Source: a virus. Taken from it: a stretch of DNA of 28,905 nucleotides. The translations under genes and the position numbers were made by a program. The stretch lies in IMG/VR virus record IMGVR_UViG_3300022673_000047, positions 1-28,905 of that record; one strand, 5' to 3'. Under the pieces are notes generated by a model. It did no database searches. It was not told the DNA's origin and worked only from the letters and a program-made list of their open reading frames with translations. Within the stretch, counting starts at the first letter, position 1. Every line of letters begins with the position of its first letter. Shown one piece after another: positions 3,766 to 25,894 of this stretch.

Positions 3766-4662
3766 TTATTGTGGTTGACTGAAGATGTCTTTATAAATAT
3801 CCTTCTGGATTTGACCGCCGACAATATCTCCGCCGATCCGAGAAACCAAATCCAGTACACCCTGAAAAGGGCTTGATTGGGCCACATCAACAGAAGGAAC
3901 ACCAAATTGGGTCGGCGACCTTAGGACTGACGTTAGCGCATCAATTCTCCCCAGATCCTCACCCCGTCTCCGTAAAATCTCTTGTCGCTCTTGATTAATA
4001 CGGGCGTTTTCTAATTCCCGCTCAAGTCCCCCTACGCCCAGAAGATCACCAATTCGCCCCCTCTGAATGGATTCAAGTAACGAAGAAAGGCCTCCAAGCT
4101 GGTTTGCCGCTGTGAGCCTCCTGTCCAGAGCTTGGTTGGTCAATCCAGCAAGCCTTTCCGCAATAATCTGACTTCCTTCGTTTTGGACGTCACCTAACCG
4201 TTGAACGGTATTCGTAGAGAAAAGATCTCCAAAAACTCCAGCCTCCCTCTTAAGAGCATCGTTTCTGTCCCTTATTTCGGACTCTAAGCGATCTTTAAAG
4301 GGCGCGAAGGTCCCTGCTGGGTCAATTGTTGGGTCGTTTAAAAACTCTAGAGTCGTATCAATTGCTGAAAAAAGAGAGGAAGGCCCTCCTTCTCGGAACC
4401 TATCTTCAAAGGCACCAATCGCATCCCTCTCGAGACCTGACAAATCAAATACACCTTCCGGAAGACCAATATCTTCACCGAGTCTTAAATCATTTAGTGT
4501 TCCACTGTCAGCCAATTCAAGCAGCTTGCTTCTAGCTAAGGCCTCCTGAGGCGTTTGTAGGGGAACCTGCGTCGAGCTTTTCTTCTTTCCCCCCAATAAT
4601 GCGGATCCCACGCTTCCAACGCCTCCGAGTAAAAGACCGCCTGTAATTGGATTGAGTCCCAT
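3766..4662 (-). CDS. Putative internal virion protein with glycine-rich N-terminus, 298 aa
   Basis: The 298-aa product starts MGLNPITGGLLLGGVGSVGS, a Gly-rich hydrophobic N-terminus common in podovirus ejection proteins (P22 gp7/gp20-like in style, not in demonstrable sequence). The rest is amphipathic helix and coiled coil: Arg/Glu-rich runs around 130-245 (LERELENARINQERQEILRR) and an amphipathic C-terminus (VLDLVSRIGGDIVGGQIQ). The start overlaps the upstream stop in TAATG, with GGAGGG upstream, so it is coupled to the fibre gene. A pilot or membrane-pore role is inferred. It could also be a minor tail component. Confidence 0.6.
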   Translation of the reverse strand: MGLNPITGGLLLGGVGSVGSALLGGKKKSSTQVPLQTPQEALARSKLLELADSGTLNDLRLGEDIGLPEGVFDLSGLERDAIGAFEDRFREGGPSSLFSAIDTTLEFLNDPTIDPAGTFAPFKDRLESEIRDRNDALKREAGVFGDLFSTNTVQRLGDVQNEGSQIIAERLAGLTNQALDRRLTAANQLGGLSSLLESIQRGRIGDLLGVGGLERELENARINQERQEILRRRGEDLGRIDALTSVLRSPTQFGVPSVDVAQSSPFQGVLDLVSRIGGDIVGGQIQKDIYKDIFSQPQ

Positions 4663-5903
4663 TAGATTCGCCCTCCATTTTTAACAAGATTTTTGATCCC
4701 GGATTCCACATCTTTCTTAAGAACCAATTTTTTGTCGTTGGGGCTGAATTCCATAAGATTTCGGATAACGAGAGAGGGGGACATGGGAGCAAAGAGAGAT
4801 CTGAAATAATAAAGTTTTTTCATGTTTTTCATTGTGTCCGGGATCCGTTCCATTAAGGAATCGTGGCATTTGACGCCTTTCATATCCATTTTCCATTTTG
4901 GTCGATCTTCACACCATCGACGGAAAACCTTATAACCGAGAGCTACATTCTTCTTCGATATTTTTTCCCTTAGTTTTGTTGAAATGGATAGATCAACAAT
5001 TGATACTTTGTGGGCACGCCATTTTGGATGCTCAAATAATTGACCTTCAAATGGATTCGTTTCCAATTCGGGGTCTGTTTCGGTTTGGTTCGGCGGATCT
5101 TCCGATTCCCATATCCCCTGAATATTCTTTTTTTCATCAATAAGGACCCATAAACGAGGTCTATCAGAAGATGTGATATACCGCCATCGCGTACTTTTTG
5201 TTTGAGTTGCACCAATTCCAAATCGACCCGTTGGATCTCCGGGATCACTGGATCCATTTGACCATGAAGCTAACGCATCGGTTGAAGCCCACGACGCAAT
5301 GGACGGAAAAAAGCAGAAGTCATTCATTGTAATGCTTCCACTTGAACTGCTTGATCCTGTTGAAGTTAGTATCTTGCCGGAAGTAACGGAGCTGGCAGCC
5401 AGATGTTCATTATCAATTGAACCATCGGCATAATGTTCCGAGTCAATGGAATCGTCGGCAATTTTATTGCCGTTTACGCAATCGGCTGAGAGATGCTCAT
5501 TATCAATTGATCCTGCTACATAATGTTCGGAATCGACTTGATCATCAGCTATTTTTGCACCTGTTACACAATCAGCGGCCAACTTTGCTGTCGATATTCC
5601 CCCGTCAGCAGGCAAAGTGAATACAGTATCCCAGGTTGATCCGTTATATCGCTCCAATACGTTTGTTGATGTATTTATATAGAGACGGCCTTCGACCAGG
5701 CTATCTCCCGTCGGTCTCGATGCCGTTGCTCCCCTCAGAAATCCAGGGATGAAAATGGGAGTCGATCCTGGTGTTGCCCCAGGAAAAGTAGAAAATTCAT
5801 GACTCAATGCCTCCGCCAAGGCTGCTTTCATTTCTCTGATGCGGTCATCCCCTTCGCGTGCTAAATCTGTTCCAGCTGGTGTTGTCGCGTCCCAGACGCC
5901 CAT
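4662..5903 (-). CDS. Tail fibre-like protein with 30-aa repeats
   Basis: A 413-aa protein starting after AGGAGGATATT at ATG 5903. The N-terminus (MGVWDATTPAGTD...GDDRIREMKAALAE) is a widespread anchor type of phage tail proteins (PAG...GDDRIRE.K). Residues 109-168 hold two near-identical 30-aa units (AKIADDQVDSEHYVAGSIDN and NKIADDSIDSEHYADGSIDN, each followed by EHL), then a partial third; such DSEHY/GSIDNEHL units are familiar in aquatic phage fibres. A Ser-rich linker (180-190) follows. The C-terminal 220 residues are unlike a fibre: Trp-rich then strongly basic (about 300-413). Either it has an unusual adhesin tip or an unrelated domain is fused. Host recognition is the likely role of the repeat part. 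Confidence 0.75.
   Translation of the reverse strand: MGVWDATTPAGTDLAREGDDRIREMKAALAEALSHEFSTFPGATPGSTPIFIPGFLRGATASRPTGDSLVEGRLYINTSTNVLERYNGSTWDTVFTLPADGGISTAKLAADCVTGAKIADDQVDSEHYVAGSIDNEHLSADCVNGNKIADDSIDSEHYADGSIDNEHLAASSVTSGKILTSTGSSSSSGSITMNDFCFFPSIASWASTDALASWSNGSSDPGDPTGRFGIGATQTKSTRWRYITSSDRPRLWVLIDEKKNIQGIWESEDPPNQTETDPELETNPFEGQLFEHPKWRAHKVSIVDLSISTKLREKISKKNVALGYKVFRRWCEDRPKWKMDMKGVKCHDSLMERIPDTMKNMKKLYYFRSLFAPMSPSLVIRNLMEFSPNDKKLVLKKDVESGIKNLVKNGGRI
5400..5579 (-). repeat. Two tandem 90-nt repeats inside the fibre gene
   Basis: These encode residues 109-138 and 139-168 of the fibre protein. The shared core is KIADD-x-x-DSEHY-x-x-GSIDNEHL. A partial third copy continues to about 5373. 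Codons differ between copies, so the duplication is not recent and protein sequence is under selection. Confidence 0.75.
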
Positions 5904-5912
5904 AATATCCTC

Positions 5913-6287
5913 CTAGAATACAATGACGCTAAAAGACGTGCTCGAAGCGTCAGATCGTAAATATAAAGTTGTGGCCGTATTTGCCGTTGGCCCATTGTAG
6001 ATAGTCCCTGCCCCACCCTGTTTGTATACGATGTAGCCGGTCGGCACTTTTCCAAGCCCATGTGAGACACTAAATTCTGTTCCGGGTGTAGCATCGGATG
6101 TCACTGTTACCAAAGAAACATCCATATTATCTTCAAAGGATAATCCTCCATCCAAAATCGATTTTAAGTTTTGTTGCCATTCCTCTAAGATTTGGAGCAA
6201 TCGTTTTAATAAGTCTGGAATCTTTTTTGGATCGGAATCCGTCGTTTTAAATAGCCCTGGGAATGTTGGGTCTTTATATTCTGTCAA
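5913..6287 (-). CDS. Small virion (tail-associated) protein, TTG start
   Basis: A 124-aa protein starting at TTG 6287, which overlaps the stop of the gp10-like gene (TTGA) and follows GAGAGG by 5 nt. Residues 1-50 are helical (KIPDLLKRLLQILEEWQQNL). Residues 70-124 are a beta-rich module (EFSVSHGLGKVPTGYIVYKQ...TATTLYLRSDASSTSFSVIVF) of a type that recurs in small tail-region proteins of phages and often trimerises in fibres or needles. It sits between tail hub and fibre genes, so a fibre-attachment or tail-needle role is plausible. No specific family is recognised. Confidence 0.65.
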   Translation of the reverse strand: MTEYKDPTFPGLFKTTDSDPKKIPDLLKRLLQILEEWQQNLKSILDGGLSFEDNMDVSLVTVTSDATPGTEFSVSHGLGKVPTGYIVYKQGGAGTIYNGPTANTATTLYLRSDASSTSFSVIVF

Positions 6288-7834
6288 TTTCGCCTCTCCC
6301 GAATTGTACCGCGAATGGAATATTTTTTGATCGTGAAACTCTCTCCGCTTCCATCTTTGCTGAATCGAAACCGTGTTTTCGTTGATATAACGTCAAAATA
6401 AAGAATGATCGGTGAATCGTCTGTCGGATAATCGGAACTCAAGCTGATATTTCCATTTGGGAGAGTTATCCAAGATGTTCCGGAATCTGTCGAATATTCC
6501 ACCTTGAGATCGGTCCCTTTGGCCCATAGTTCGATCAGTGTCCACCTCACGAAATGTCCATAATCAGGTGTTCCTAAATCCTGGGCTGTAAAATCCTTTG
6601 TCTCAATGATGCTTTCAACAGCTGATCCATTATCATCGGATCCCGTTGATACCTTTGTCGTAACACCGGATGAATCGCCCATAATCAGGACGGGTTGAGT
6701 GTTGGATAGAATTTTGTCATTCCACCGGAAAGTTTGTTCATCCCAATCCCCTACTAAATCATCCCATGTAAATTCCTGCGTGTTTAAAAATAATCCCATT
6801 GTCGTCATATTGGATCGATTGTCTTTGTATATTTCACCTGTTCGATAATTGAATTTGTAAATAGTATCGGGTTCGGTATTGGATCCAATGGGAATGGCAA
6901 TCCAGACCTCATCATCTTCTTCCTTCACAACGGCTTCGGCTTTCATCAAATATTCTGAATTCATTTCGTCTCTTAATTCTTCCTGAATGGGGCTGGGGAT
7001 CAGTGGCGCGGTAATCCCATTAAATAAATGAATACCATCGGGAGCCAAAAACAATTGCTCTCCGGTCGGAATTGTTACGATGGCTTTATTGCTAACAGCC
7101 CCGATTCCTGTTGCTTTCCTATCGAATCGAACGATACTGGAAGTCGTAACCAATTGCCCCACATAAATACTTTCCGTCTTATGGACAGTCAAAAAATTCC
7201 CCCATGTTTTCATTCCGGTAATAAATCCTTTATCAAGAAGAAGATTCGTGTTACCTGAATTTCCACCAGACCATGTTTCTGGATCCGATGTATCCGGCCA
7301 TTGAACACGATAAGGTCTTTCGTTTCCGCTTCCATCGTCAGTGATGTGGGCCAAAAATAAGTAAGGGCCAAATGCTTCCATATATTTGGCTTTGGGGGGG
7401 GATCCGCCCAAATCAGCATCATTTCCAGACCCCGTGTATTTTCGGATGGCATCGGCTCCGTTTGTAAAACAAACGATCCGACTACCAGAAAGCAATGGGA
7501 ATGCGTAATCCACCATATCTGTTTCTGTTCCCGCTAATACTGAATTGGCAATGCTCGACCATGTATCCGTCGATTTGTTGAGAACCTCGACCTTCGTAAG
7601 GCCTACGCGAATTAAATGGGTGCTTCCGTTCTCGGTTTCCAGCTCAAAGATTCGCTGAACTCTTTCCGAAAGAGATGATCCAACCGCTGTCGTTCCAGGA
7701 CGAGATTCCACTATACTTCTCTTGGCTCGAATATTTTGATTCGAGGCGTGAGCTCTGGGATCGATGAATTCCCCTGGCCGGTCAATGACCAATCCTTTAA
7801 TGGGAAGTGGGATGTTGAGTGTTTGCCTGGGCAT
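6284..7834 (-). CDS. Tail hub / DNA-stabilisation protein, P22 gp10-like
   Basis: A 516-aa beta-rich protein. The N-terminus (LNIPLPIKGLVIDRPGEF...NQNIRAKRSIVESRPGTT) and blade-like repeats (residues 60-330: LIRVGLTKVEVLNKSTDTW, IVCFTNGADAIRKYTGSG, LFLAPDGIHLFNGI) resemble the beta-propeller tail-accessory proteins of the P22 gp10 / packaged-DNA-stabilisation type. These close the portal channel in short-tailed phages. The C-terminal 120 residues look like a separate beta sandwich. The ribosome site before ATG 7834 is weak and the adaptor gene stops 2 nt upstream, so translation is probably coupled. The family assignment is by pattern and position right after the adaptor. Confidence 0.65.
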   Translation of the reverse strand: MPRQTLNIPLPIKGLVIDRPGEFIDPRAHASNQNIRAKRSIVESRPGTTAVGSSLSERVQRIFELETENGSTHLIRVGLTKVEVLNKSTDTWSSIANSVLAGTETDMVDYAFPLLSGSRIVCFTNGADAIRKYTGSGNDADLGGSPPKAKYMEAFGPYLFLAHITDDGSGNERPYRVQWPDTSDPETWSGGNSGNTNLLLDKGFITGMKTWGNFLTVHKTESIYVGQLVTTSSIVRFDRKATGIGAVSNKAIVTIPTGEQLFLAPDGIHLFNGITAPLIPSPIQEELRDEMNSEYLMKAEAVVKEEDDEVWIAIPIGSNTEPDTIYKFNYRTGEIYKDNRSNMTTMGLFLNTQEFTWDDLVGDWDEQTFRWNDKILSNTQPVLIMGDSSGVTTKVSTGSDDNGSAVESIIETKDFTAQDLGTPDYGHFVRWTLIELWAKGTDLKVEYSTDSGTSWITLPNGNISLSSDYPTDDSPIILYFDVISTKTRFRFSKDGSGESFTIKKYSIRGTIRERRN

Positions 7835-7836
7835 AA

Positions 7837-8817
7837 TTAATCGTATGAATCATCCGGCGCTTGAACAAAAACATGATCGCCGGTCGCATATTCCTCCCTT
7901 TCCATGGACTGATTTAATTCTTGCTCAGCCCGTTGAGACCAATATCCAGACCGCTCGAAGTCTTCCAAGGCCTCATAAAGATATTTATAAGTAAAAAATT
8001 TGAGCATCGACCGATATTCAGCCGTAAAAGGAACGCCTGTCGTTGAGGAGGTAATGGTCCCGCCGAGTTTGGAATAGGTCTTTCGATAACCATAATCTGT
8101 TTTATCCGGGATAGGACCGATATAAATATCATTGTTATAGAGGCAGGCGTGTTCAGGAATTCCCCGATCTGACGTTACATTTTGATCGGGATATATTTTA
8201 TCGAACTTATTCTTAGAAATAATATCCAATGGCCAAGCATCTTCATCATCTTCAACAACGATCCCAGACAGCATTCCATAATCGGATTCCACATCCATTT
8301 TAAAATCGCCATCAACAGTGATGCTGTCTGTAATGAGAGTTTCTTGTTGAGATTCTTGGAATTGAAATCGTCGATTTAATTCTTTGACCGCATCCGTAAT
8401 CGCCTCATAGATTTCCGTATCTTTATCGTCTCTTTTGAATCCACCGCGAAGGAGATAATCTCGGAAATCCGATCCTGTCATGGCGCCCGAAGGTGTGGAG
8501 GCCGAGGCGGTTCCCGTCCAGTTAACCTCTCCTGTATCAGCTCGAGTATCAGATTCGGCTGGACTTCCACCAGACTGAATATAAGATACCCAATGATAGG
8601 TTCCTCCGGTTACGATAGCCGAAGGGAAATCGGCCGTATAAACACCCGAGGCGGTTCCCAATTCCGTCAAAGAAATATCATAATCGCCAATATTTGCCGT
8701 TGCATAGGCTTCGAAGGCGGATGAACTTGTATTCCATACCTGACCATCGGCATTGTATAGATTGACATAAAGTGTTTGGCCTGTAACGCCTAATGGATCA
8801 AATATTTCATTTGACAT
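7837..8817 (-). CDS. Head-tail adaptor protein (SU10-adaptor-like) with N-terminal Ig-like domain
   Basis: A 326-aa protein, AGGGAGAAATT before ATG 8817. Residues 1-105 are a beta domain (GQTLYVNLYNADGQVWNTSS...GTASGVYTADFPSAI...GGTYHWVSYIQSGG) seen in many phage proteins as an add-on module. Residues 115-320 look like the helical adaptor family of SU10/phiEco32-type phages: a helix with NRRFQF, a beta pair around MDVESDYGMLSGI, the IYIGPIP turn, and the C-terminal helices (FTAEYRSMLKFFTYKYLYEALEDFERS...). Such adaptors bind under the portal and receive the nozzle/hub, here encoded immediately downstream. The fusion to an Ig-like domain is uncommon. Confidence 0.65.
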   Translation of the reverse strand: MSNEIFDPLGVTGQTLYVNLYNADGQVWNTSSSAFEAYATANIGDYDISLTELGTASGVYTADFPSAIVTGGTYHWVSYIQSGGSPAESDTRADTGEVNWTGTASASTPSGAMTGSDFRDYLLRGGFKRDDKDTEIYEAITDAVKELNRRFQFQESQQETLITDSITVDGDFKMDVESDYGMLSGIVVEDDEDAWPLDIISKNKFDKIYPDQNVTSDRGIPEHACLYNNDIYIGPIPDKTDYGYRKTYSKLGGTITSSTTGVPFTAEYRSMLKFFTYKYLYEALEDFERSGYWSQRAEQELNQSMEREEYATGDHVFVQAPDDSYD

Positions 8818-8826: not shown

Positions 8827-10275
8827 CTATAACCCGTTTATTTCAACCAAAACAAGGACCGAACGCTGCATATTTCCATTGGCCCAACCTGTCGTTCCCG
8901 ATCCACTGACCGTTTTAAATTGAACCTTGTATTCCGTGGAACTTGTCGTCGATGGACTATCCACATAGAGAAGAGTAGCGGGCATCACATCGGTGGCTCC
9001 CGCGCTAAATATTTCTGTTAAACCATGTGTCGCGCCGAGATTGGTTCCGTTTCGCGCAATTGTGGCCACGCCCGAAAATCCACTGGCATCATGACTTAAA
9101 GTTCCGTTCGCGATAATTAAAACGCTATTCGTTGTGGATGAAGGAGTAATGGATGCTTCTAGACCTGTGTCGGTAAAACTTGTATTGGTTGTTGTCGTCG
9201 ATCCATTGAGCGTGGCGGAAACAACCTGAATCATTTTAACTTGGTCATAACGAGCAAGATGATAAGCAAGGGTAGCATCAACCTGAGATGTTGGCGCATT
9301 GCTTATCGCGGTGAAACTGGATACTGTAATGGTCGAAACGGTGGCGGCATCAAAAGTCAGGGAATCAGCATCCAGATTTGTGACGGACAGGTTTGTTATG
9401 GTCCCACTGGAAGCCGTGATAGTCGAGACATCGACTCCCTCTCCTGTATAATCATTTGCTGAAACGTCTCCCGAGAAATTAGCATCCACACCGGTAAGAG
9501 TTCCCTCCACTTCAAAATCTCCATGGATTGTTCCACTGGATCCCACATAAAGAAAATCCGAATAAGATGTCGAACCCGATTGAAGTGTTCCTTGATTTAA
9601 AATGGCTTCATCGTCCGTCAGGATATCCGTTACATCTGTCAATTGTGTTTCTAATTCTGATTCCGAATCAAGTTCAGTTTCACTAATGTAATCCGTATCT
9701 AAATCCGTTGAATCAATACATCCCGAACAGGAAAAATTTGTTACCGATAATGAATCGATGGTTCCGCTACTGGTAGCGGTTATGGTTGAGACCGTCAGGC
9801 TTTCGGAGGTCGGGTCGTCACCCAAAAGAAGAGATCCACCAGATTCCTGAAAATCTGTGGAATCGTAATTTAAATATATATTCACGTTTCCCGATGAATT
9901 TTGGGAGGACGTTAAGACATTGTTGACGGAAATGGTCGATACGTCTGCATCAATTTCAACGCCCGTATCTTGGATGACAAGCGTCCCAACACCGCCTGTA
10001 AGAGAGGTTCCGTCAACAAAATGAATGGAGGATACATTGCTGATTGTTGATACTTCGAGATAGGTTAGTGTTCCGGTCGATACCGATAGAACATTGGTCG
10101 TTGTGGAATAGGTGAGATCAGAATTCGATCCAAATAGACCGTCATTATTGAATTGAATTTCTCCATTTGATCCACCAGGAAGAGTCAATAGAGATGTGAT
10201 TCGGGCTGAGACCGGGGAAGCAAAAGACAGAATCAATCCAAAGACCAAATATTTCATTTTTATCCATTTTGTCAA
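8827..10275 (-). CDS. Secreted beta-rich fibre-like repeat protein, 482 aa
   Basis: The start is TTG 10275 (AAGGGG 8 nt upstream); the next in-frame ATG (10257) is 26 nt from that site. The N-terminus has a Sec signal peptide: basic MTKWIKMK, hydrophobic YLVFGLILSFAS, and PVSA cleavage near residue 24. The mature part begins with the fibre-type motif GGSNGEIQFNNDGLFG (about 34-50). It then has repeated Thr/Ser/Val strands (VSTITATSSGTIDSLSVTN, VSTITASSGTITNLSVTN) and a compact beta domain at 340-482 that resembles C-terminal modules of phage fibres. The isolated CSGC pair (about 183-186) is odd. A surface-exposed adhesin or fibre is likely; an exported, host-displayed protein is possible because of the signal peptide. 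Confidence 0.7.
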   Translation of the reverse strand: MTKWIKMKYLVFGLILSFASPVSARITSLLTLPGGSNGEIQFNNDGLFGSNSDLTYSTTTNVLSVSTGTLTYLEVSTISNVSSIHFVDGTSLTGGVGTLVIQDTGVEIDADVSTISVNNVLTSSQNSSGNVNIYLNYDSTDFQESGGSLLLGDDPTSESLTVSTITATSSGTIDSLSVTNFSCSGCIDSTDLDTDYISETELDSESELETQLTDVTDILTDDEAILNQGTLQSGSTSYSDFLYVGSSGTIHGDFEVEGTLTGVDANFSGDVSANDYTGEGVDVSTITASSGTITNLSVTNLDADSLTFDAATVSTITVSSFTAISNAPTSQVDATLAYHLARYDQVKMIQVVSATLNGSTTTTNTSFTDTGLEASITPSSTTNSVLIIANGTLSHDASGFSGVATIARNGTNLGATHGLTEIFSAGATDVMPATLLYVDSPSTTSSTEYKVQFKTVSGSGTTGWANGNMQRSVLVLVEINGL

Positions 10276-10289
10276 TTTCTATTCCCCTT

Positions 10290-11030
10290 CTAGGGATTGC
10301 TGACACCCGTCGATGATGTCCAAGTCGGTGCATCATTAGGGGAACCATGATAATCATTCCCTGATCGATCAAGGACAGAACTAGCTCCTTCGACGGAGAC
10401 CCCCTCAACTCCTTGATCGAGAGTCCAATGTCCTACCAACCCATCTGTCAAATGAATACGGGATCGAGATAAGGCAATTGATTCAATCTCAGCCGCGTTT
10501 AAGGCTCGATTGTATATCCGAACATCATCCACATATCCTTCGTAATAATTGGCTGGTGTTCCGCCCACAACGCGATATCCAATCGTAAAAGGGCCATCGC
10601 AATCAATATCTCCTACGCTCGATATGTCTCCCGTTGAAACTTCCACCCCATCGACATAACCATGGAAGGAATCATCGGATCGATCAATGACGCCTGCATA
10701 ATGATGCCAAGTATCCGATGACATATTGGCCACCAATCCAGGGTCTCCATTTCCGGCGGAATCCCGAAGACGCCAATTCACTTCCTCACCAGAATCGGTG
10801 ATGAAAAAATCGAAGAAACTGGTTCCGCCTGTCGAATTCCATTTGGAAACAACCTGAGGACCGGATCCATTGGATTGAGCCCATGCCATATAGGTAAAAG
10901 AATCCGTTCCGGGTTCTAGATCGGCATTGGTGGAGGTCGATATGCCATCATTTGCCCCATCAGAATAAACAGCCGAATAGGCTGACATGGATAAGGTGAA
11001 AACAAATAAGAGGGCTAATTTCTTAATCAT
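10290..11030 (-). CDS. Secreted LamG/concanavalin-like lectin-fold protein
   Basis: A 246-aa protein with a Sec signal peptide (MIKKLALLFVFTLSMSAYSA, cleavage near residue 20). Residues 21-186 form a LamG-type jelly-roll domain: SFTYMAWAQS, WHHYAGVIDRSDDSFHGYVD, EGYVDDVRIYNRALNAAEIE are its hallmark strands. Residues 196-246 restart the same fold (DGLVGHWTLDQG...DRSGNDYHGS...PTWTSS) but stop after about 50 residues, so a second domain is truncated or is only a strand-swapped extension. The start overlaps the upstream stop (ATGA, 11027-11030). Sugar binding at the surface is a family-based inference. Confidence 0.75.
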   Translation of the reverse strand: MIKKLALLFVFTLSMSAYSAVYSDGANDGISTSTNADLEPGTDSFTYMAWAQSNGSGPQVVSKWNSTGGTSFFDFFITDSGEEVNWRLRDSAGNGDPGLVANMSSDTWHHYAGVIDRSDDSFHGYVDGVEVSTGDISSVGDIDCDGPFTIGYRVVGGTPANYYEGYVDDVRIYNRALNAAEIESIALSRSRIHLTDGLVGHWTLDQGVEGVSVEGASSVLDRSGNDYHGSPNDAPTWTSSTGVSNP

Positions 11031-12826
11031 CTTTCTTTTATAACCACCTTTCGAACTTCAATATCACCAGAAGCCCCATCGCTGGCATGATCGGCATTTC
11101 GGCCGAATCGAACCGTTATAAGATCTCCCTCTTTACAAGAATCGTCATTGGTCAAATTCGTAGAAACAACATCCAAATAACCAGCTGTCCCAGGGACAGT
11201 GGTAGTGGATCCGTTGACTGAATCAAACGAAGCCGAATCCAGATCGGCTGAATCCGCATCGGTCACACACATTAATTCAACCTCCGTGACTACATCGCCG
11301 GAAGTTGCACTGGCCATCGAATAATAAATATCCGCGACCATCGTCCCATCATTGAAGGGATAGAGAATTGTTGACCATGTAACTGTTTCATCCGTCGAAG
11401 CATCACAGAGCAAAGAACTGGTAACGGCATTGGTTGAGTTTGATATTGCACACGGATTAGAATCCGGCAATTTAGCTTGGTCCGGATTAAAAACATAGAA
11501 ATAATTCGCCGAGGCAGCTGTTGTTCCGACGAGTCCTGTTACTGTCGCGGTTAGATCCAGTCCACCAAATGTTGGTGGAGTATAATTAAGTCGAAGAAAT
11601 CGATATCCCATATCACCGAAATCCCATACTGTAGTCCCGTCAGCCGAATAAGTTACGGATGTAACAGCGATTCCATTGACGACCGTTCCGGTGAGATCCG
11701 ACCAATTACTTCCGTCATTTGAGACTTGCCAATAGAATCCTGTATTATACGCCGCACTGAAGGTTATGGGAGTCAATGTGAAGGATCCACCCCCGGTAAC
11801 GCCCGTGATATCAACAGCTGATCCCGCAACCGCATTGCTCTTACTGGATGCTAATTGATACGCATTTTCGCCCTGTTTAATCACATAATAAGTCGTTTGA
11901 TCGGTCAATCCGCCTGGATCGGTTCCTGATACATTGGCAAATAAAAGACCCAATCCTTGACCGAATCCGTGAGACGTTTGTGAAATAGTATCTTCGTCAG
12001 GATCAATATCGGAGCTGATTCCATATGTCCAATTTGAAATGGTTATCCCGGTCGTTGAGGCACTGGCAAAATAAGCAGATCCACTTGGATCAATTTCGGT
12101 TAAGGTGATGACATTGACAGATGTGGATGTTGAAAATATAGCCCCCAAAGTCGAATCGTTTCCAATGGCATCCGCCAAATTATCGGCGGATGTGGCCGAA
12201 TCCGTAACAATATTGAAGTCGGTGTCTTCGGTTAAAGTTACGCCGTAAATCGTGACAGAAGGTGCATCGATTCCGCCCGATAAAGCGGAGGCCGATACAA
12301 CCAAATTCGAATCATCGGTACTTAGGAGGGAAATATCATTCCCGGAAGTTCCGAGGGATCGAGCGGTGACGGTGACTGTTGAAACACTACTGGTGGCGGT
12401 AACATCGGGGTGACGAGCTGCAATAACGGCCGCGAGATTTGAGGCCGATACCGTCGAAGAGGTTTCGGCATCGAAGTCCGTTCCTTCCGTAAAACGACGA
12501 CCGGCAATTATGATGGAATCTCCGCTAACGGCTGTGTAATCTTGGAAATTAATCGTCGCCGAGGCGGCTGTCCCAATTAATCCTGTTATATCGTCTGGAA
12601 TGGTGATCGTGAGGTTGGCTAAGACCCCATCACTGACAGTATCGGCAGAGGGACTGGAATCTTCATAAACGGCTTGAACGCTAACTTGGCCGAATCGGCT
12701 AATATCGGTGGAATTGGTTCGGGTGGATCCTTGAGCAGTCCAGGAAACGAAATCATAGGTCACGGTTTCGCCAAACGCTAGACTCCCCATCAAGAATAAG
12801 AGTGGAAACAATGTCTTTTTTAGCAT
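11027..12826 (-). CDS. Secreted beta-sandwich repeat protein, 599 aa
   Basis: ATG 12826 follows GGAGG by 10 nt. Residues 1-19 are a Sec signal peptide (MLKKTLFPLLFLMGSLAFG then ETVTYDF). Two related units follow: residues about 75-180 (INFQDYTAVSGDSIIIAGRR, FTEGTDF..., TVTARSLGTSGNDISLLST) and about 185-270 (SVTIYGVTLTEDTDFNIVTD). This strand pattern is common in phage tail and surface proteins. Further beta domains reach the C-terminus; residues 450-599 contain several Cys (SSLLCDAS, CVTDADS, DDSCKEGD) consistent with disulfides in an exported protein. A terminator lies just upstream. It is probably an adhesin or virion decoration, but I do not recognise the family. Confidence 0.7.
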   Translation of the reverse strand: MLKKTLFPLLFLMGSLAFGETVTYDFVSWTAQGSTRTNSTDISRFGQVSVQAVYEDSSPSADTVSDGVLANLTITIPDDITGLIGTAASATINFQDYTAVSGDSIIIAGRRFTEGTDFDAETSSTVSASNLAAVIAARHPDVTATSSVSTVTVTARSLGTSGNDISLLSTDDSNLVVSASALSGGIDAPSVTIYGVTLTEDTDFNIVTDSATSADNLADAIGNDSTLGAIFSTSTSVNVITLTEIDPSGSAYFASASTTGITISNWTYGISSDIDPDEDTISQTSHGFGQGLGLLFANVSGTDPGGLTDQTTYYVIKQGENAYQLASSKSNAVAGSAVDITGVTGGGSFTLTPITFSAAYNTGFYWQVSNDGSNWSDLTGTVVNGIAVTSVTYSADGTTVWDFGDMGYRFLRLNYTPPTFGGLDLTATVTGLVGTTAASANYFYVFNPDQAKLPDSNPCAISNSTNAVTSSLLCDASTDETVTWSTILYPFNDGTMVADIYYSMASATSGDVVTEVELMCVTDADSADLDSASFDSVNGSTTTVPGTAGYLDVVSTNLTNDDSCKEGDLITVRFGRNADHASDGASGDIEVRKVVIKER

Positions 12827-13277: not shown

Positions 13278-14396
13278 TTAGGCAATGGCCGCAGTGTCAA
13301 TCGCAATACATCCATATTCCAATGAATTGAACATGATTTTCTGAACACCGCCGATGAAGCTGATCGCCACACCGTCTTTGTTCTTATAATCGAATTGCTC
13401 AACAACCAAGGCATCGGGGTTAGAGGCTTCCGCCACCGCAACCGCACCTTTTCCGCAGAAAATTGCTCGAGCGGAATCCACACCGAAATCGGTCCCAGAG
13501 GATGCACCCCGAAAGCTGTTTCCAGCCACCGAAATGTCCAGCCAAGGACAGAATTCGTTTCGAAGGAGAAGCGTATTCCCCCAGAATCCGAGAGCGCCTC
13601 GAAAGACAGGATTACTTTGAGATCGTTCACGAGCATTTTCTTGAGCGGTTTTCCAATCAGATGATTTACGGATATCGCGAGCTTGAAGAGGATGGAGATA
13701 ACAAACATAGAAATCACCAGCCGGATCTTCAATGGGTTGGATTTTTGGATCGGCCAGATGAGCTTTGGTTTCAGCATCAGTGATGAGATCCAAGTCCATG
13801 GTATCACCTGAGTCAGCCGTTGCCATCGAGTGACCGGCGGCGTTCAAGTAACGATCTCCTGAACCCGTTGCCGATGCGGTATCCGCATTAGGAATGAAAT
13901 CGGGAGTGTTTGACCATGTGGCCCTTGTTCCCACAACACGCCCATTGACATCGGTCAATGTGGTATTGGTAACACCGCCCAGCTTTAAAAATATTTGCTG
14001 AACGATAAACTCCTTCATCCAGACGCGGAGGTTTTCACGGGCTGGCTTGATCTGGTCATAGACAACCTTTTGGGCGTCTAATTTTCCTTTTAAACGAACG
14101 GCTTCCCGGATTTGATCAATGGCAACTTGCTCATTGAACGATTCCATGGCCTCTTCGTTTCCTTCAAGTTCAGCGTCACCTGTGACACCAAACCCATCCA
14201 ATCGAGCAACCATTGAGAGATTAGCTGTATCTCCCTTCTTTTCCATAAGATCTCGTTTCTTTATAACAACACCATTTCCGTTTTCTTCCATGGTGGTGAA
14301 GCGCATAATATTATCGACGTCACGCGCCACGTCGGCCATAAGCTCCTTAGACCATAGTTCTTGCCTATTGGCATCAATTGTTACTGTATTCGACAT
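13278..14396 (-). CDS. Major capsid protein, N4-gp56 family
   Basis: A 372-aa HK97-fold capsid subunit with GGGAGG before ATG 14396. The N-terminal half shows the hallmarks of the N4-gp56/DUF4043 family: ELWSKELMADVARDVDNIMR (13-32), GNGVVIKKRDLMEKKGDT (40-57), LDGFGVTGDAELEGNEE (66-82), then IDQIREAVRLKGKLDAQK (about 93-110), with RENLRVWM a little later. The C-terminal half has typical capsid strands and loops (PLQARDIRKSSDWKTAQENA, GNTLLLRNEFCPW). Length is within the family range. It lies directly after the scaffold gene and before a decoration-like gene, the usual head order. Confidence 0.9.
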   Translation of the reverse strand: MSNTVTIDANRQELWSKELMADVARDVDNIMRFTTMEENGNGVVIKKRDLMEKKGDTANLSMVARLDGFGVTGDAELEGNEEAMESFNEQVAIDQIREAVRLKGKLDAQKVVYDQIKPARENLRVWMKEFIVQQIFLKLGGVTNTTLTDVNGRVVGTRATWSNTPDFIPNADTASATGSGDRYLNAAGHSMATADSGDTMDLDLITDAETKAHLADPKIQPIEDPAGDFYVCYLHPLQARDIRKSSDWKTAQENARERSQSNPVFRGALGFWGNTLLLRNEFCPWLDISVAGNSFRGASSGTDFGVDSARAIFCGKGAVAVAEASNPDALVVEQFDYKNKDGVAISFIGGVQKIMFNSLEYGCIAIDTAAIA

Positions 14397-14419: not shown

Positions 14420-15646
14420 TTATCCACGCACTAGGCGATTCACAACATCGGGATGTTTGGCTCGGAAGTCGTTATAGGTTTGGCTGTCCATGGCATTCAA
14501 GTCATCGATGGTGACATCTTCGACTGAAAGCACCCGACGGCCTCCGGATCCCGTTATTGAAGCTGAAGAACCTGTGCGAGATTCATTTTTCTTGATTCTT
14601 TCTTCTTCTTCGGGTGTGAGGCCCCCGTCGTCCTGTTCGGCATTTGGATTATGAGGTTCGGCGCTCGGGCCGCGAGATTTGTCTTCCGATGGTAAATACT
14701 CAAGAGCAATTTTACCCAGATCATAAGCCATATCCGCTACGTTATAGTCGTCTATAGACATCTGATCCGCTTGAACGGATGACGCTTGTATGCTTCTTAG
14801 CAAGGCAAACGCCTTTTTTCGAGCTCCTATTGGCAATGTTTTGAGATTGACTTCATTCAAAAACACTCCGGTTTTTGGATCCCGGTCTACCAATTTCTTA
14901 CCCAGATTGACGATATTATCGAAATCCGGATATTCACTTCTAGCATGATTTTCTTGGATTAGCAAGGCTTCGTTGATTTTTTTGGCCTCATCATTGGTTT
15001 TATCCTTAGCCTCTCTTTCCGCATTTTTCTCATCATCCTTCATGGTTTTCATCATTTCGCGGAATTCTTTTCGGGTCATTGGCTTTTCTTCTTTCTCTGG
15101 ATCTTCCTGGGGAGGAGGCGTTCCCGGTTCTAATTTCACCATCCGGGATTTTAAGTCATCTATCTCTTTTAAAGCACGATCTCGCTCCCGTTCGGCCGCC
15201 TGGGCCCTAGATTTAAAATGCTTTTGCTGAAAATACAGGCCCGAAACATTACGGAGCTTATGAGAAGCCTGTGAATCCCGACCAAATGTTTCACGTAGAA
15301 CTTTTTCCTCTGTCTCATTCAAAGCGAAATCATCAATAGTGGGTTTATTTTGAGGATGGGGAATCGACTCAGGCCTCTTATTATCAGGCGGTTTTTCTTC
15401 TTTGGGTGGTTTGTTTTTATCTTGATCGTCAGTCTTTTTCGGTTCCTCTGGAGATTTCTTCTCTTCGGCAAACATCTTATTCTTTTTCCCCATCTCAATC
15501 TCTTCCGGGGACCATCCTTGCTTTTCGGCTTGTTCGAGTGTCATCCTTTCCGGAGCAGGTGGCAAAACGGCCTTGGCCGGAAGCTCATAAGTCTTTTTAT
15601 TCTTATCCGCTTCTTTGGGTGCATCTTGGACTATCGGATTTGTCAT
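14420..15646 (-). CDS. Capsid scaffolding protein
   Basis: A 408-aa highly charged protein directly upstream of the major capsid gene, AGAGGAAAGAA before ATG 15646. Residues 55-110 are Lys/Pro/Glu-rich and probably disordered. A coiled-coil region follows (about 140-250, SRAQAAERERDRALKEIDDL, REMMKTMKDDEKNAEREA). The C-terminal part is helical and ends FRAKHPDVVNRLVRG, a basic end suited to capsid-shell binding. Low-complexity, coiled-coil composition and position between portal and capsid are characteristic of scaffolds. No protease motif is seen, so removal would be by exit or by another protease. Confidence 0.75.
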   Translation of the reverse strand: MTNPIVQDAPKEADKNKKTYELPAKAVLPPAPERMTLEQAEKQGWSPEEIEMGKKNKMFAEEKKSPEEPKKTDDQDKNKPPKEEKPPDNKRPESIPHPQNKPTIDDFALNETEEKVLRETFGRDSQASHKLRNVSGLYFQQKHFKSRAQAAERERDRALKEIDDLKSRMVKLEPGTPPPQEDPEKEEKPMTRKEFREMMKTMKDDEKNAEREAKDKTNDEAKKINEALLIQENHARSEYPDFDNIVNLGKKLVDRDPKTGVFLNEVNLKTLPIGARKKAFALLRSIQASSVQADQMSIDDYNVADMAYDLGKIALEYLPSEDKSRGPSAEPHNPNAEQDDGGLTPEEEERIKKNESRTGSSASITGSGGRRVLSVEDVTIDDLNAMDSQTYNDFRAKHPDVVNRLVRG

Positions 15647-16036: not shown

Positions 16037-16136
16037 GATTGTATCTCCTTTTCAATCTCTTTTTCTGAAGGATCACCGATTTTTTCCTAGCTTCAATCAT
16101 ATCCTTCTCACCATGTAAGACTTTTTTCTCTGTCAT
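15996..16136 (-). CDS. Small basic protein overlapping portal stop, 46 aa
   Basis: ATG 16136 overlaps the portal stop (ATGA) and has AAAGGAG 7 nt upstream, a better site than many neighbours. The product begins MTEKKVLHGEKDMIEARKKS and is almost entirely Lys/Arg-rich. Its 3' end overlaps the next gene by 41 nt, which is long for this genome and the main reason for doubt. No family recognised. Confidence 0.45.
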   Translation of the reverse strand: MTEKKVLHGEKDMIEARKKSVILQKKRLKRRYNHAPTQKKVTKSKK

Positions 16137-18028
16137 CCCTGTGCTCCTTTTGCTGTCGATTGTTGCTGTCGAAAGAATTTTGATTTGACATGGGCCGGAA
16201 GATCCGATTCATCCAATAAAACTTCCGGATTGAAAGAATTCGGAAAAAGCTGGGCAAGCTCTTTAACCTCATCAAATCGCGCTTTTTTCATTGTTTCACT
16301 CATCACAGCCTCCCCAACGGTCACGTCATATTTCCCAATGTTGATATCCGTTAAGACTTTATTGATGGAGAGATTAAGAGCCTTCTCCGATTCGTCCGTC
16401 ATTTCCTGTGTTACTTGACCCGTCTTTGGATCTTGGACTAGCTGGGAGAAGTTTTTCTTAATGAAGGTTGGACCCAATATCTTTTTAACAGCTCGGATAT
16501 GGAAGATCTCCGAGAATTGGGAGAGGATGAATCGACCTGCCAATTTCTTGGTTCGGCTCAAATTATCATAGAGCTTCTGGACATTGACCACGCCTTGCCT
16601 TTGGCGAAGAGCGATGGCCTTACCACTAGACTGACCACCATCCGAAACGGCAAGTAAATCAGCATTGATTCCCGTTTGGGCCTTGATTGATTCGGCTGAT
16701 TCTTCGGAACTAAAGACATGGCCCTGGCTGAGAGGCATGGGAAACATACGCTCTGGCTTCTGGTGGCCCTTTTTATATTCCAAGTTCACATTGGGCGTTG
16801 ATCCGTAATCAGCCACCTTCTTACGATCTACCCAGGCTCCTTGCTCTGTCAACCAGCCAGAATTGGTCGTCCCATCCAAGAATCGGAGGTATTGTGTCTT
16901 TCGCTTATTATGCTCCTCCTGAGAGGATTTGGAGCCCCGAACCAACCCTTGAACACCGAGATGTTGATCCTGCGTCTGAAAGCTATTGGCAATATTAGAC
17001 CAATGAGCGAAATAGGGAATGAATGGCCAATTTCGCCACCGGGGATAGAACCACGCTATTTCATCCGATAATGGCTCAGTCAACCCACCTGTCATAACAT
17101 ACCGCCATATCTGGGGAACCAGTCTCTTCTGTATGCGAAATCGTCCCTTATTATTGGAATCGGCCTCAACCATCCGTTTCACATTCTCTTTGGCAATTTC
17201 CTCTAGTGTTTTCGGATTTTTTTTATCCGTCTTAATAACTTCGATTAAATCTCCTTCATTCAAGTCAAAGACAAAAACACCCTCAACCCACTTTTTGTAA
17301 TACCGCTCCAAGAGGTCAAATGTCCCTCTCTTCTGGCCATCAAAAAAGAGACCATCTCTGTTTTTCGTGGGATAATCTCGGAGTTGTGCGTGCGTTCCGG
17401 TTTTGGAAAGGATGCCAGGATCGAGCAATCCTTCTTTTAAACCTTCAATCTTATTCTTCATATCAGGGAAAAGTGTTTGAAGATCACCCTTTTCTATGCA
17501 AGGGGTATACTTATAGATATAGGGAACATCGGACAGATCGTACTCAGCCCATCCTGGTTTGGGATAGATTTGATCGAAGTTTAACTTCTTCCAACGCGGC
17601 TTAGGGCTTAAAAGATTGAACGTCGAATCCAACCATAATTCGAGGTAAGACTCTCCACCAGTAATCCCATCCTCAAACATCTCAGAGAATTTATCGGATC
17701 CGTCGGATTGCTTCATGACGTTTTTGAAGAGTGCCGTGGCAATAGACGCTTCAATAGTATCCTCTTCTCCTTCTGGAAAGGCTTTAAATTCCGATCTGTT
17801 TTGACGCTCTAAACCAGAAAGAAGAAAGATATTGGTCCGTATTCGGTTATCGGTAATTGGCTTCACTTTCTTTTTCCGAAGTTTTGCCACCACATCATCA
17901 TCCCATTGCTTTCCCAGGGAAAACAAATGATCTTTGGTTTGTTCCTCTGTCAGCTTCTTTTTGGCTTCATGAGCCTCAAGGAATTCTGATAAGACTTTCG
18001 AATTTGTTAGTTCATCTTTTTTGGCCAT
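16133..18028 (-). CDS. Portal protein, P22-like
   Basis: A 631-aa portal subunit forming the dodecameric DNA channel of the head. I start it at ATG 18028 (MAKKDELTNSKVL, GGAGGGAG about 10 nt upstream). The frame is open to 18148, but the extra codons cover a terminator hairpin and are not protein-like. P22-type portal features: PITDNRIRTNIFLLSGLERQ (about 56-75), an acidic PEGEEDTIEASIA segment, an ...EDGITGGESYLELWLD stretch, the central WPFIPYFAHW...NKRKTQYLRFLDG region, and the late helix GQSSGKAIALRQRQGVVNVQ. The terminase genes lie upstream and the scaffold gene downstream, as expected. Confidence 0.85.
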   Translation of the reverse strand: MAKKDELTNSKVLSEFLEAHEAKKKLTEEQTKDHLFSLGKQWDDDVVAKLRKKKVKPITDNRIRTNIFLLSGLERQNRSEFKAFPEGEEDTIEASIATALFKNVMKQSDGSDKFSEMFEDGITGGESYLELWLDSTFNLLSPKPRWKKLNFDQIYPKPGWAEYDLSDVPYIYKYTPCIEKGDLQTLFPDMKNKIEGLKEGLLDPGILSKTGTHAQLRDYPTKNRDGLFFDGQKRGTFDLLERYYKKWVEGVFVFDLNEGDLIEVIKTDKKNPKTLEEIAKENVKRMVEADSNNKGRFRIQKRLVPQIWRYVMTGGLTEPLSDEIAWFYPRWRNWPFIPYFAHWSNIANSFQTQDQHLGVQGLVRGSKSSQEEHNKRKTQYLRFLDGTTNSGWLTEQGAWVDRKKVADYGSTPNVNLEYKKGHQKPERMFPMPLSQGHVFSSEESAESIKAQTGINADLLAVSDGGQSSGKAIALRQRQGVVNVQKLYDNLSRTKKLAGRFILSQFSEIFHIRAVKKILGPTFIKKNFSQLVQDPKTGQVTQEMTDESEKALNLSINKVLTDINIGKYDVTVGEAVMSETMKKARFDEVKELAQLFPNSFNPEVLLDESDLPAHVKSKFFRQQQSTAKGAQG

Positions 18029-18050
18029 GTTTGTTATTCTCCCTCCAACG

Positions 18051-18096
18051 AAAAAAGGGCCGTTTCCAGAGGCTACCACACCTCTAAAAACGACCC
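18051..18096 (-). terminator. Strong intrinsic terminator just upstream of the portal gene
   Basis: On the minus strand GGGTCGTTTTTAGAGG (18096-18081) pairs in full, allowing G-U, with CCTCTGGAAACGGCCC (18072-18057). The stem is 16 bp with an 8-nt loop, and six T follow (18056-18051). The portal ribosome site begins about 4 nt after the T-tract, so no promoter fits between terminator and gene. Read-through, antitermination or use as a processing/stability hairpin is implied. Confidence 0.85.
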
Positions 18097-18173
18097 TATA
18101 AATCGTTGGTTTCCGCTCGTTATAGGCGATTAAGTGGGAGCTACCCACAGACGGAATATTTTAAATTGTTCGG

Positions 18174-18839: not shown

Positions 18840-20195
18840 TTAAAGTGCCATGGGATCTTCATCGATCACTGCATCCCTTTCTTCACGAAGTCTATATTTA
18901 TCTTTCTCCGTAATCACATCCACCTGTTCAACTGCCCAAAGTCCGTTAACGAAGGCATCCGCACAGTCCGGGCTTCGGCCCAATCGTTTCTTGATATCCT
19001 CTTTGGATTCTATCTGGAAAACGCCATTGGATTTAATCGCTTTGTACTTGATCCAATTCAATTCCTCCACCAAATCTTCGTCTTCTGGGTCAATATCGAT
19101 CTTTTCTGATTCGAGAAGATTGGCAGCATTATCGTAAATCTCGGCCCGTGTGTTATAAAACTTCTGAGGCTGTGTCGATTTCCTTGAGGAATTCACATAA
19201 ATGACCTGATACCCCAGCTCCGTCAAGCGATCCGCTACACCGGCCCCAACCCCAATTTCATCAACGGCAAAGGCTTTAATTCCGTTCTTTTTCGCAAAAA
19301 TCACCGCTAGGCCCACCGTTTCCATCGTATTCTTCTTCTCCCACGATTGTTTATCAATCATGAATGTTTCTTTCCGTGCTCCTTGCTCAAGCGCGTAGAA
19401 GACTGTTTTATCATCTCCATATCGAGCCACATCAATCGTAATGATCTTTCGGATGGGAGGCTGAATATTCAAATCTTTTTCGCGTGCTTTATCAATCCAT
19501 TGGGAGTTGATAATCAAATCGGCGGTATCACTGTCTTCCCAGGAATTTTCTACAAATCGGCTGTAAATGCTTGGCTTTCTCTTCTTTAGGATCTCAAGGC
19601 TCTTAAGAAATTCGGGCGAAAGGTTTTTTTCGTTGTCATGAGTCTTTGCTTCATAAAGTTCCCCATTCTCAAGTTTTCCCGCCTTCCAGAGCTTATGAAT
19701 CCAATTGCGGCCCCGTGTGTTGGCTGTAATAAAGCCCGAGTGCGGCATCCCTTTGCGTCTCAATCGACCAAAAAGCATAAAAAAGATCTCATCTGTTTCC
19801 AATTCCTCTGCCTGTTCAATCCAAAACCAACCTAAATTGATATTTTGGATGTTATTTAGCTCTTCCAGATGTCGGAACATGATGATCGAACCATTCGGGA
19901 AATCGACTTCTCGGGAGGAATTGACACCCAATCCGGTGTAAATCTCAAAATCTTTTATAGTGGAGTCCTTAAGATCGGTATATTCCTTTCGGAAGATGGC
20001 CCCCAGGTTGTTCTCATGGCCCTCTGAGAGCCTCATGGCGCGACAAATCCCACATAACGACTTACCAGTCCCCCACCCCCCAATAAACGCAGGGTAGCGC
20101 GCTTTTGACGCAATGAAGGCCCTTTGAACAGGGATAGGCCGAATGATGGTGTCATTTTTGTTAAAGGTGGGCTTTTCTTTAGTCTTGGTCGCCAT
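18840..20195 (-). CDS. terL: Terminase large subunit (ATPase-nuclease)
   Basis: The DNA-packaging motor, 451 aa from ATG 20195; in-frame ATGs at 20210 and 20216 and an open frame to 20282 are alternatives, and no start has a strong ribosome site. Using 451-aa numbering: Walker A GGWGTGKS at 39-46, Walker B region NLGWFWIEQAEEL ending near 132 with catalytic Glu in EQAEE, and coupling motif FITANTRG near 155-162. The nuclease domain has TIDVARYGDDKT (Asp 255), AFAVDEIGVGAG (Asp 312) and SPDCADAFVNGLWA (Asp 410/413). All catalytic residues expected for an active headful or cos-type TerL are present. The preceding gene is a probable small subunit, overlapping by 17 nt. Confidence 0.92.
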   Translation of the reverse strand: MATKTKEKPTFNKNDTIIRPIPVQRAFIASKARYPAFIGGWGTGKSLCGICRAMRLSEGHENNLGAIFRKEYTDLKDSTIKDFEIYTGLGVNSSREVDFPNGSIIMFRHLEELNNIQNINLGWFWIEQAEELETDEIFFMLFGRLRRKGMPHSGFITANTRGRNWIHKLWKAGKLENGELYEAKTHDNEKNLSPEFLKSLEILKKRKPSIYSRFVENSWEDSDTADLIINSQWIDKAREKDLNIQPPIRKIITIDVARYGDDKTVFYALEQGARKETFMIDKQSWEKKNTMETVGLAVIFAKKNGIKAFAVDEIGVGAGVADRLTELGYQVIYVNSSRKSTQPQKFYNTRAEIYDNAANLLESEKIDIDPEDEDLVEELNWIKYKAIKSNGVFQIESKEDIKKRLGRSPDCADAFVNGLWAVEQVDVITEKDKYRLREERDAVIDEDPMAL

Positions 20196-20466
20196 TGTCT
20201 TTGTCGTCATCCCCATCCATGATGATAACCAACCTCTTCTTTTGTTCGAACTTATGGTGGAGATCCTGGGCTGGCTTGCCATGGGCGATAGGTTGAATCT
20301 CTTTAAAGACCGGGAACCACGTATCGAAATCGTCTGATTTGAGGGCTTTTTCTAGCTTCTTTAAGAATATTTCGCTCTTAAGAGCCCGATCACACCACTC
20401 CCGGAACCAGCCTGGTTTTCGCCCTGCGTTCTTTGGGTTGCCTATATTTCTTCTTTCTTTAGCCAT
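20179..20466 (-). CDS. Putative terminase small subunit
   Basis: A 95-aa protein immediately upstream of TerL. The N-terminal part (NAGRKPGWFREWCDRALKSE) and middle (WFPVFKEIQPIAHGKPAQDL) resemble short terminase small-subunit-type proteins that start with a GRKPG/GRPPG motif and end with a ...YGKP.Q segment. The C-terminus is acidic (IIMDGDDDKDNGDQD). Function is assigned from position and this pattern; the helix-turn-helix expected in a full TerS is not clear. GAGGAT just before ATG 20466 is close to the start. Confidence 0.5.
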   Translation of the reverse strand: MAKERRNIGNPKNAGRKPGWFREWCDRALKSEIFLKKLEKALKSDDFDTWFPVFKEIQPIAHGKPAQDLHHKFEQKKRLVIIMDGDDDKDNGDQD

Positions 20467-23410: not shown

Positions 23411-23592
23411 ATAAGCGAACCGCCTAACCTTTCTGACACGTCTTTGCTTATTTGGGATAAGAGATGGATCTTGGCTTCAATCTGAAACTCATCGGTCTCT
23501 ACCTTTAATTCTTCCAATGTTTCTCTCACCTTTTCCACTTTGTTCGTAAGGCGGTCTATCGTTTCTAACTTAATCATTTGAACGCTTTCCAT
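23401..23592 (-). CDS. Small coiled-coil protein, 63 aa
   Basis: GAGGAGG lies 5-6 nt before ATG 23592, a strong site, inside the end of the upstream gene. The product (IDRLTNKVEKVRETLEELKV...) is one charged helix with heptads. Function unknown. Confidence 0.6.
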   Translation of the reverse strand: MESVQMIKLETIDRLTNKVEKVRETLEELKVETDEFQIEAKIHLLSQISKDVSERLGGSLIWA

Positions 23593-23827
23593 TTTCTTCC
23601 TCCTCTAATACAGACTCTAAATATCCGGGTTCCATTTCTTCGTAGACGGTGAAAATAGGCTCTCCCGGTTCAAAGAAATAAACGCTTTCGGTTCCGTCCT
23701 TCCATTGGCAGGTCACTATCGTGTACCCTGTGTCTCCTTTTATTTCCCGGCATTCCTGGGGTAACTCTGATGATTTCACATTCGAAGCCAGAATCATTGA
23801 AACTATTAGAGCCATAAAAATTCTCAT
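23570..23827 (-). CDS. Small exported protein, 85 aa
   Basis: Residues 1-20 (MRIFMALIVSMILASNVKSS) are a Sec signal peptide. The mature part has two Cys (LPQECREIKGDTGYTIVTCQ), a probable disulfide, strands, and an acidic tail. It starts in a 4-nt overlap with the lipoprotein gene, so both are probably co-translated and sent to the envelope. No family recognised. Confidence 0.6.
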   Translation of the reverse strand: MRIFMALIVSMILASNVKSSELPQECREIKGDTGYTIVTCQWKDGTESVYFFEPGEPIFTVYEEMEPGYLESVLEEEENGKRSND

Positions 23828-24225
23828 AGCTGGGCAACCGCCTTCTTAAGCGTCTTTTTCATTGACCACTGAAAGATAGACCCACTATTAAACCGAACGG
23901 ATCGAACAATATTGCCGTCATCGGTATCAACAAGAATGGCAGTAAAGGACTGAAAGACTTTATTCACAGGGAATGAGTCCTCAATCGAATAACTATACCG
24001 GAGAATATAATCAGATGATACGGCGGGATCAACCACCTCAAATCCACGCTCCATAAGAAGCCCTTCCAATTGCGCCTTGACGTTATAGGGATCGACCGTC
24101 ATCTGACTCATGATCATGACTGTGGCCTGAGGCTTTAAGTTGGGCTCTGTTTTTTTGACTGATCGAGAAAGACTGGCACATCCTTGAAGCATAAGAACGA
24201 CGATGAGAGCATTGATAATTTTCAT
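23824..24225 (-). CDS. Lipoprotein, 133 aa
   Basis: I start at ATG 24225, preceded by TAAGGAGG 6 nt upstream; the open frame to 24261 lacks a site. Residues 1-16 are a lipoprotein signal (MKIINALIVVLMLQGCASLS) with lipobox LQGC. The mature alpha-beta domain (about 30-133: ATVMIMSQMTVDPYNVKAQL, GLLMERGFEVVDPAVSSDYI, SFTAILVDTDDGNIVRSVRF) resembles periplasmic small lipoproteins of bacteria. Phage lipoproteins of this kind can block superinfecting phage receptors; that role is an inference. Confidence 0.65.
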   Translation of the reverse strand: MKIINALIVVLMLQGCASLSRSVKKTEPNLKPQATVMIMSQMTVDPYNVKAQLEGLLMERGFEVVDPAVSSDYILRYSYSIEDSFPVNKVFQSFTAILVDTDDGNIVRSVRFNSGSIFQWSMKKTLKKAVAQL

Positions 24226-24236
24226 AATTATCCTCC

Positions 24237-24494
24237 TTAGTATCCTTTCCGCCCTTCGCATTTTTGGGGTTGGTAATGAACAAACGAATCACAGAAGATG
24301 TGATGATAATGCTGATATAACTCTTGAGATTTGAGACTCATTCTCTGGGCGAGATTGGTAAAAAAGAATATCCTCCCTTCGAATAGATTCATGTCCTTTT
24401 CATTTTCAACCATGTCAATGGCACGATCCAATCGCTTAAGGCCTTCTCTCAGCTCTGAAACGATTACATCTTTTGTCATAACAATGTCATCCAT
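24237..24494 (-). CDS. Hypothetical helical protein, 85 aa
   Basis: AAAGGAGG 6 nt before ATG 24494. A helical product (VSELREGLKRLDRAIDMVEN, FFFTNLAQRMSLKSQELYQH) with His and Cys near the end (HYHHIFCDSFVHYQPQKC). Not recognised. Confidence 0.6.
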   Translation of the reverse strand: MDDIVMTKDVIVSELREGLKRLDRAIDMVENEKDMNLFEGRIFFFTNLAQRMSLKSQELYQHYHHIFCDSFVHYQPQKCEGRKGY

Positions 24495-25633: not shown

Positions 25634-25894
25634 TTAAGATTTCACAGATTTGCCATCAGTGGAATTGGATGGTTTGTTGGCGGGCGTGGCCAGGGCTGTT
25701 AGGAGACTTAAGGGATTGAAGGGTACTCTTTCCGATGTTTGTTTTAATTCCGATTGGCAAATTCGATCTTTGAGGTAGCTGACGATTCTCGTTCTCTCGT
25801 CCCAATTGTGCGATTTTAAGATATTGAGAATCATCCAGATCGTTTCCAATTCTCGATCTTTTATTGGGTCGGAATTTTCTTTATGGTCCGGCAT
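25634..25894 (-). CDS. Hypothetical protein, 86 aa
   Basis: I start at ATG 25894 (MPDHKENSDPIKDRELETIW), GAGG 9 nt upstream. The N-terminal half is helical (IWMILNILKSHNWDERTRIV). The C-terminus is Ser/Pro/Thr-rich and probably disordered. It is the last gene before the 25535-25634 promoter gap. Not recognised. Confidence 0.6.
   Translation of the reverse strand: MPDHKENSDPIKDRELETIWMILNILKSHNWDERTRIVSYLKDRICQSELKQTSERVPFNPLSLLTALATPANKPSNSTDGKSVKS

Follow-up and report, generated by a model that had tools for sequence, protein, structure and literature searches.

Tailed phages are understood to assemble their particles in the cytoplasm, and their virion proteins normally remain there. The question raised by the locus studied here is why three consecutive genes in the virion block of such a phage encode proteins that begin with Sec signal peptides, and what these proteins might do. 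The window (the whole stretch of DNA that was analysed) is a 28,905-base record of a P22-like podovirus, with its virion genes on the minus strand. A PF13252 capsid protein, a P22-type portal and a terminase large subunit mark it as a P22-like tailed phage, and ejection-type proteins (a label taken from gene order and weak matches) as well as a GH108 lysozyme are also encoded; an Rfam scan of the window gave no match. The relevant features are listed below, and the interval between the decoration-like protein and the adaptor is called the slot.

18840-20282, minus strand: terminase large subunit
16133-18148, minus strand: P22-type portal
14420-15646, minus strand: scaffold-like protein (named from gene order and weak matches)
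13278-14396, minus strand: major capsid protein, PF13252
12936-13244, minus strand: 102-aa decoration-like protein, upstream edge of the slot
11027-12826, minus strand: family A protein, 599 aa (ATG start, GGAGG upstream)
12770-12826, minus strand: signal peptide of the 599-aa protein, residues 1-19, MLKKTLFPLLFLMGSLAFG, predicted cut before ETV
10290-11030, minus strand: LamG (Laminin_G_3) protein, 246 aa (ATG start, overlapping the stop of the 599-aa ORF)
10974-11030, minus strand: signal peptide of the 246-aa protein, residues 1-19, MIKKLALLFVFTLSMSAYS, predicted cut before AVY
8827-10275, minus strand: family B tail-fibre-like protein, 482 aa (TTG start, AAGGGG upstream)
10204-10275, minus strand: signal peptide of the 482-aa protein, residues 1-24, MTKWIKMKYLVFGLILSFASPVSA, predicted cut before RIT
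10051-10203, minus strand: conserved mature N-terminus of family B (RITSLLTLPGGSNGEIQFN..., residues 25-75), a putative docking segment
8833-9237, minus strand: fibre-tip-like C-terminus of the 482-aa protein, matching fibre and hypothetical proteins of Methylophilales and Pelagibacter phages
7837-8817, minus strand: SU10-type adaptor with an extra N-terminal domain (about 110 aa)
6284-7834, minus strand: nozzle-like virion protein, phrog_3287 ('nozzle-like' from order and weak matches)
4662-5903, minus strand: ordinary tail fibre without a signal peptide

Signal peptides in the slot

The sequence-only reading had claimed Sec signal peptides for all three ORFs and a position between the capsid and decoration genes and the adaptor, and both claims are borne out. 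Specifically, each protein opens with the elements of a Sec type-I signal, namely a basic n-region, an h-region of 11-13 residues (short for a membrane anchor) and a cleavage site of the small-x-small type, and each start is preceded by a ribosome-binding site at the right distance. Neither a twin-arginine motif nor a lipobox was found in any of the three, and the mature chains contain no later stretch as hydrophobic as the signal h-region. The signals were called by our own rule-based scorer, which in a control on E. coli K-12 gave a positive call for 15/15 exported, 2/62 cytoplasmic and 5/13 inner-membrane proteins; because of this last figure, membrane anchors and signal peptides cannot be told apart by the scorer alone. 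When the three sequences were shuffled, no more than 0.2% of trials reached the score of the real protein.

Elsewhere in the window, the scorer also called three small proteins of the early region exported (23570-24261 and 25881-26219, minus strand), including a lipoprotein with a clear lipobox, which points to much phage investment in the envelope.

Distribution of the signal block among relatives

Relatives were fetched with the capsid protein, the family A protein and the adaptor as queries, which gave 13 further independent contigs of the clade (one of them, L004, truncated). All 13 encode signal-peptide proteins between the decoration protein and the adaptor. At 11 loci, 26 of the 35 ORFs of this block were scored as exported, as against 1/79 further virion genes recognised at these loci and 3/109 virion-region genes of nine cultured PF13252 phages that served as a control. 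Some of the block signals rest on a non-ATG or alternative start, and several of the nine negative ORFs acquire a signal when an alternative start is used. In a tree of the nozzle-like protein, the phages with the signal block form a single clade (99/99), corresponding to one change. The signal block is a clade-wide, slot-specific trait, and its carriers are uncultured short-tailed phages.

The contents of the slot vary over the 14 contigs: family A is present in 11, family B in 10 and a signal-bearing LamG protein in two (the window and L111, where the relative is 33% identical to the 246-aa protein). The remaining slot proteins, exported ones among them, are each restricted to one or two contigs; among block proteins, a lipoprotein was seen in L008 only. 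As for the idea that relatives might carry the same trio, the slot and the signals are conserved and the exact set of proteins is not, while the suggestion of a coherent module holds in that both the slot and the exported character are kept.

A signal-like N-terminus is also found on the ordinary tail fibre of L005 (8719-9588; also in L113), unlike the signal-less copy of the window. In a distant phage whose capsid protein is 26% identical (L016), signal-like proteins lie directly after the capsid genes (9411-10991), perhaps as an independent case.

The adaptor search also returned an outer group, in which the slot is occupied by large fibre-like proteins, joined in L133 by a LamG protein, all of them signal-less; the two low-scoring exceptions, of 165 aa in L118 and 69 aa in L130, are unlike secreted fibres. 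The adaptor measures 301-326 aa in the signal-block clade versus 213-227 aa outside it, with the same branch of the nozzle tree dividing the two, and the extra N-terminal domain of about 110 residues is found only in the clade. The signal block and the adaptor domain share a branch, with one change each, a coincidence that is suggestive only. By eye, the slot before the adaptor in the outer relatives L125, L126, L128-L130 and L132-L135 contains either proteins resembling glycosyltransferases or long runs of serine with repeated W-DR-E motifs behind them.

Domain composition of the probably exported proteins

The fibre-like or lectin-like domains proposed from the sequence are supported: the 246-aa protein matches PF13385 with an E-value of 5.7e-24 (85.4 bits, against a curated cut-off of 27.6), and the 482-aa protein shows a fibre-type similarity in its C-terminal part.

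Family B, whose members carry a signal peptide in 10/10 cases (in L010, where no common start codon is suitably placed, the protein was read from the probable start), is on sequence grounds tailspike- or fibre-like. More specifically, a conserved stretch of the form (E/R/D)I(T/G)...PGGSNGEVQFN opens at the predicted cleavage site or no more than about three residues away from it; the body behind this stretch is hypervariable, and complete members range from 392 to 1692 aa. The member of L002 contains a pectate-lyase-like domain (PF12708) together with a weak endosialidase N-terminal match, and that of L110 ends in a Peptidase_S74 chaperone (PF13884). Pectate-lyase-like domains and S74 chaperones are hallmarks of tailspikes and tail fibres. 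The 482-aa copy of the window contains neither PF12708 nor PF13884, its fibre-type likeness lying in the C-terminus alone. A consensus query of the family retrieved one signal-less protein, in L139, where a related N-terminal stretch opens a fibre-like protein of 1655 aa. Family B starts are mostly TTG or GTG (the window at 10275, L001, L002, L005, L006, L010 and L011), which suggests that expression may be low relative to family A.

The family A protein of the window (599 aa) consists of a signal peptide, a beta-sandwich with inserted virion-type alpha/beta modules and an extra C-terminal region. This last region (11027-11530, minus strand) contains four cysteines and is absent in most relatives; it shares 52% identity with a portion of a 1229-aa protein in L111 that also bears a signal, a sign that modules move among exported proteins. 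An AlphaFold2 (AF2) model of the 599-aa protein built with 9 sequences reached a pLDDT of 50, and one of the mature core of the family, built with 21 sequences including distant homologues, reached 92. In structure comparison the inserted modules match tail-sheath and T7-type nozzle domains with Z-scores of about 9-13, and the sheath module is also matched by a sequence profile (E 0.0017); on the basis of these matches, family A is composed of modules otherwise found in virions. The 599-aa protein had no match among cultured phages at E 1e-3.

A tree of family A, built on the C-terminal core alone, places 15 signal-bearing members in one group (100/100) and 10 signal-less ones in another. The signal is thus present in 15/15 members of its group, which includes phages outside the clade of the window (L024, L025 and L027-L030), that of L027 requiring a GTG start. 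In L033, L037, L048 and L050 a signal-less family A gene follows a gene in capsid position (a position taken from order), and the chains begin within the mature domain. Identity in the signal part versus the mature part is 38 vs 40% for family A and 35 vs 41% for family B, a contrast too small for anything to be drawn from it.

Probable export, possible use and comparison with known systems

That the three proteins are Sec-exported and of tail-fibre type is the reading we hold with good, though not full, confidence. Export is argued by signals that are clade-wide and slot-specific, at the frequencies given above, and the fibre type by the PF12708 and S74 domains in family B relatives, the sheath and nozzle modules of family A, and the signal-less fibre-like and LamG counterparts in the slot of outer relatives. 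Alternatively, the hydrophobic N-termini could be uncleaved anchors that hold the proteins on the inner membrane, facing the periplasm; the scorer did accept inner-membrane proteins of E. coli, and the cleavage site is less clear in two family A members from outside the clade (L024 and L028), but this is improbable, since the cores of the trio are short and small-x-small sites recur where they are expected in both families, A and B. Virion-type domains and position would also suit ordinary cytoplasmic fibres, with the signal-like N-terminus buried in the fibre core or binding the neck. This is quite unlikely, given that the segment occurs on unrelated slot proteins (A, B, LamG and others) and is nearly absent from other virion genes of the clade, and that in other phages the homologous domains do without such a segment, their chains opening at the mature part; the placement in a fibre core, which the sequence-only reading had set against its own proposal, is accordingly disfavoured. 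Chance or wrong start codons, to which the non-ATG starts of some relatives and the family B gene of L010 might point, are very improbable in view of the rarity of such scores among shuffles, the restriction of the trait to one clade and slot, and the well-spaced ribosome-binding sites. Signal peptides that turn up in the virion genes of a phage thus deserve attention and are not to be written off as annotation noise.

From the signals, the slot and the domain types, which are observed, we infer Sec export, cleavage, periplasmic folding, release at lysis and a target. The trio would (i) be produced together with the capsid genes and passed unfolded through the Sec translocon, (ii) be cut after the small-x-small site and fold in the periplasm of a diderm host, (iii) be freed at lysis alongside the progeny and (iv) bind glycans or other surface structures via the fibre-tip, LamG and beta-sandwich domains, while docking on the new virion may occur through the N-terminus that cleavage exposes in family B, or through the beta-sandwich in family A. 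As for the host, when genome contigs were searched with family A, the only matches were two from Winogradskyella, to a stretch of 58 residues, and a search of plasmids with the nozzle protein gave no match.

The leading idea for the use of the Sec-exported trio, put forward tentatively, is that of fibres added to virions outside the cytoplasm. It is favoured by the virion-type modules, the constancy of the slot, the additional domain of the adaptor and the conservation of the mature N-terminus in the fibre-like family B, and disfavoured by the unusual route for tail-fibre-type proteins and by the precedent of XepA from the B. subtilis prophage PBSX, which is exported beyond the membrane during phage development and is absent from particles (PMC6834076). 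Nearly as likely as docking, and possible in its own right, is that the proteins never enter the virion and act unattached, in the periplasm or outside, where they might mask the receptors of debris and neighbours, keep out other phages or aid lysis. The signal peptides themselves and XepA speak for it, and soluble products are to be expected because the trio lacks a membrane anchor; against it stand modules and a slot that are those of virion proteins, and the layout of family B, which is that of a receptor-binding protein with a conserved N-terminus and a variable body. P22 tailspikes join finished heads last, and do so in vitro. A specific form of docking, in which Sec-exported receptor-binding fibres would be placed on finished virions only at cell burst, as an extracytoplasmic maturation with the adaptor domain or the capsid decoration as possible dock, is possible, though less likely than not. 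The signal-less counterparts in the same slot of relatives offer a natural comparison for the purpose of an exported fibre, which might serve to mature virions late, to mask receptors on debris, to exclude other phages or to bind matrix.

Several known systems resemble the block in part. Phage tailspikes and fibres that carry PF12708 or PF13884 share these domains with family B relatives, behind a conserved N-terminus and in a variable body, but all family B members found have a Sec signal and the window copy lacks both Pfam domains. XepA and YomS (the latter of the B. subtilis prophage SPbeta) contain a beta-sandwich that the outer sandwich of family A matches weakly (Z 9.5-9.7 over about 100 residues, hardly above unrelated entries near 8, and no sequence match reported); XepA is encoded in a lysis cassette, whereas the slot adjoins the capsid genes and family A has inserted sheath-type modules. 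The SGNH esterases of Sinorhizobium phage PBC5 (gp16) and Xanthomonas phage PBR31 (gp40; for the latter see PMC10975493) likewise have a predicted signal peptide and lie near virion or lysis genes, but they are single enzymes and not a conserved block of fibre-type proteins. Coat proteins of filamentous phages (M13 G3p and others) are virion proteins that are synthesised with a signal sequence (PMC8310372); these phages assemble at the membrane without lysis, unlike the P22-like tailed phage considered here, with its portal, terminase and GH108 lysozyme. Among open-licence papers, no report was found of signal peptides on a conserved fibre-type set of tailed phages. Thus, while XepA, single SGNH esterases and filamentous coat proteins were known already, a conserved block of fibre-type proteins, probably exported, may be new for tailed phages.
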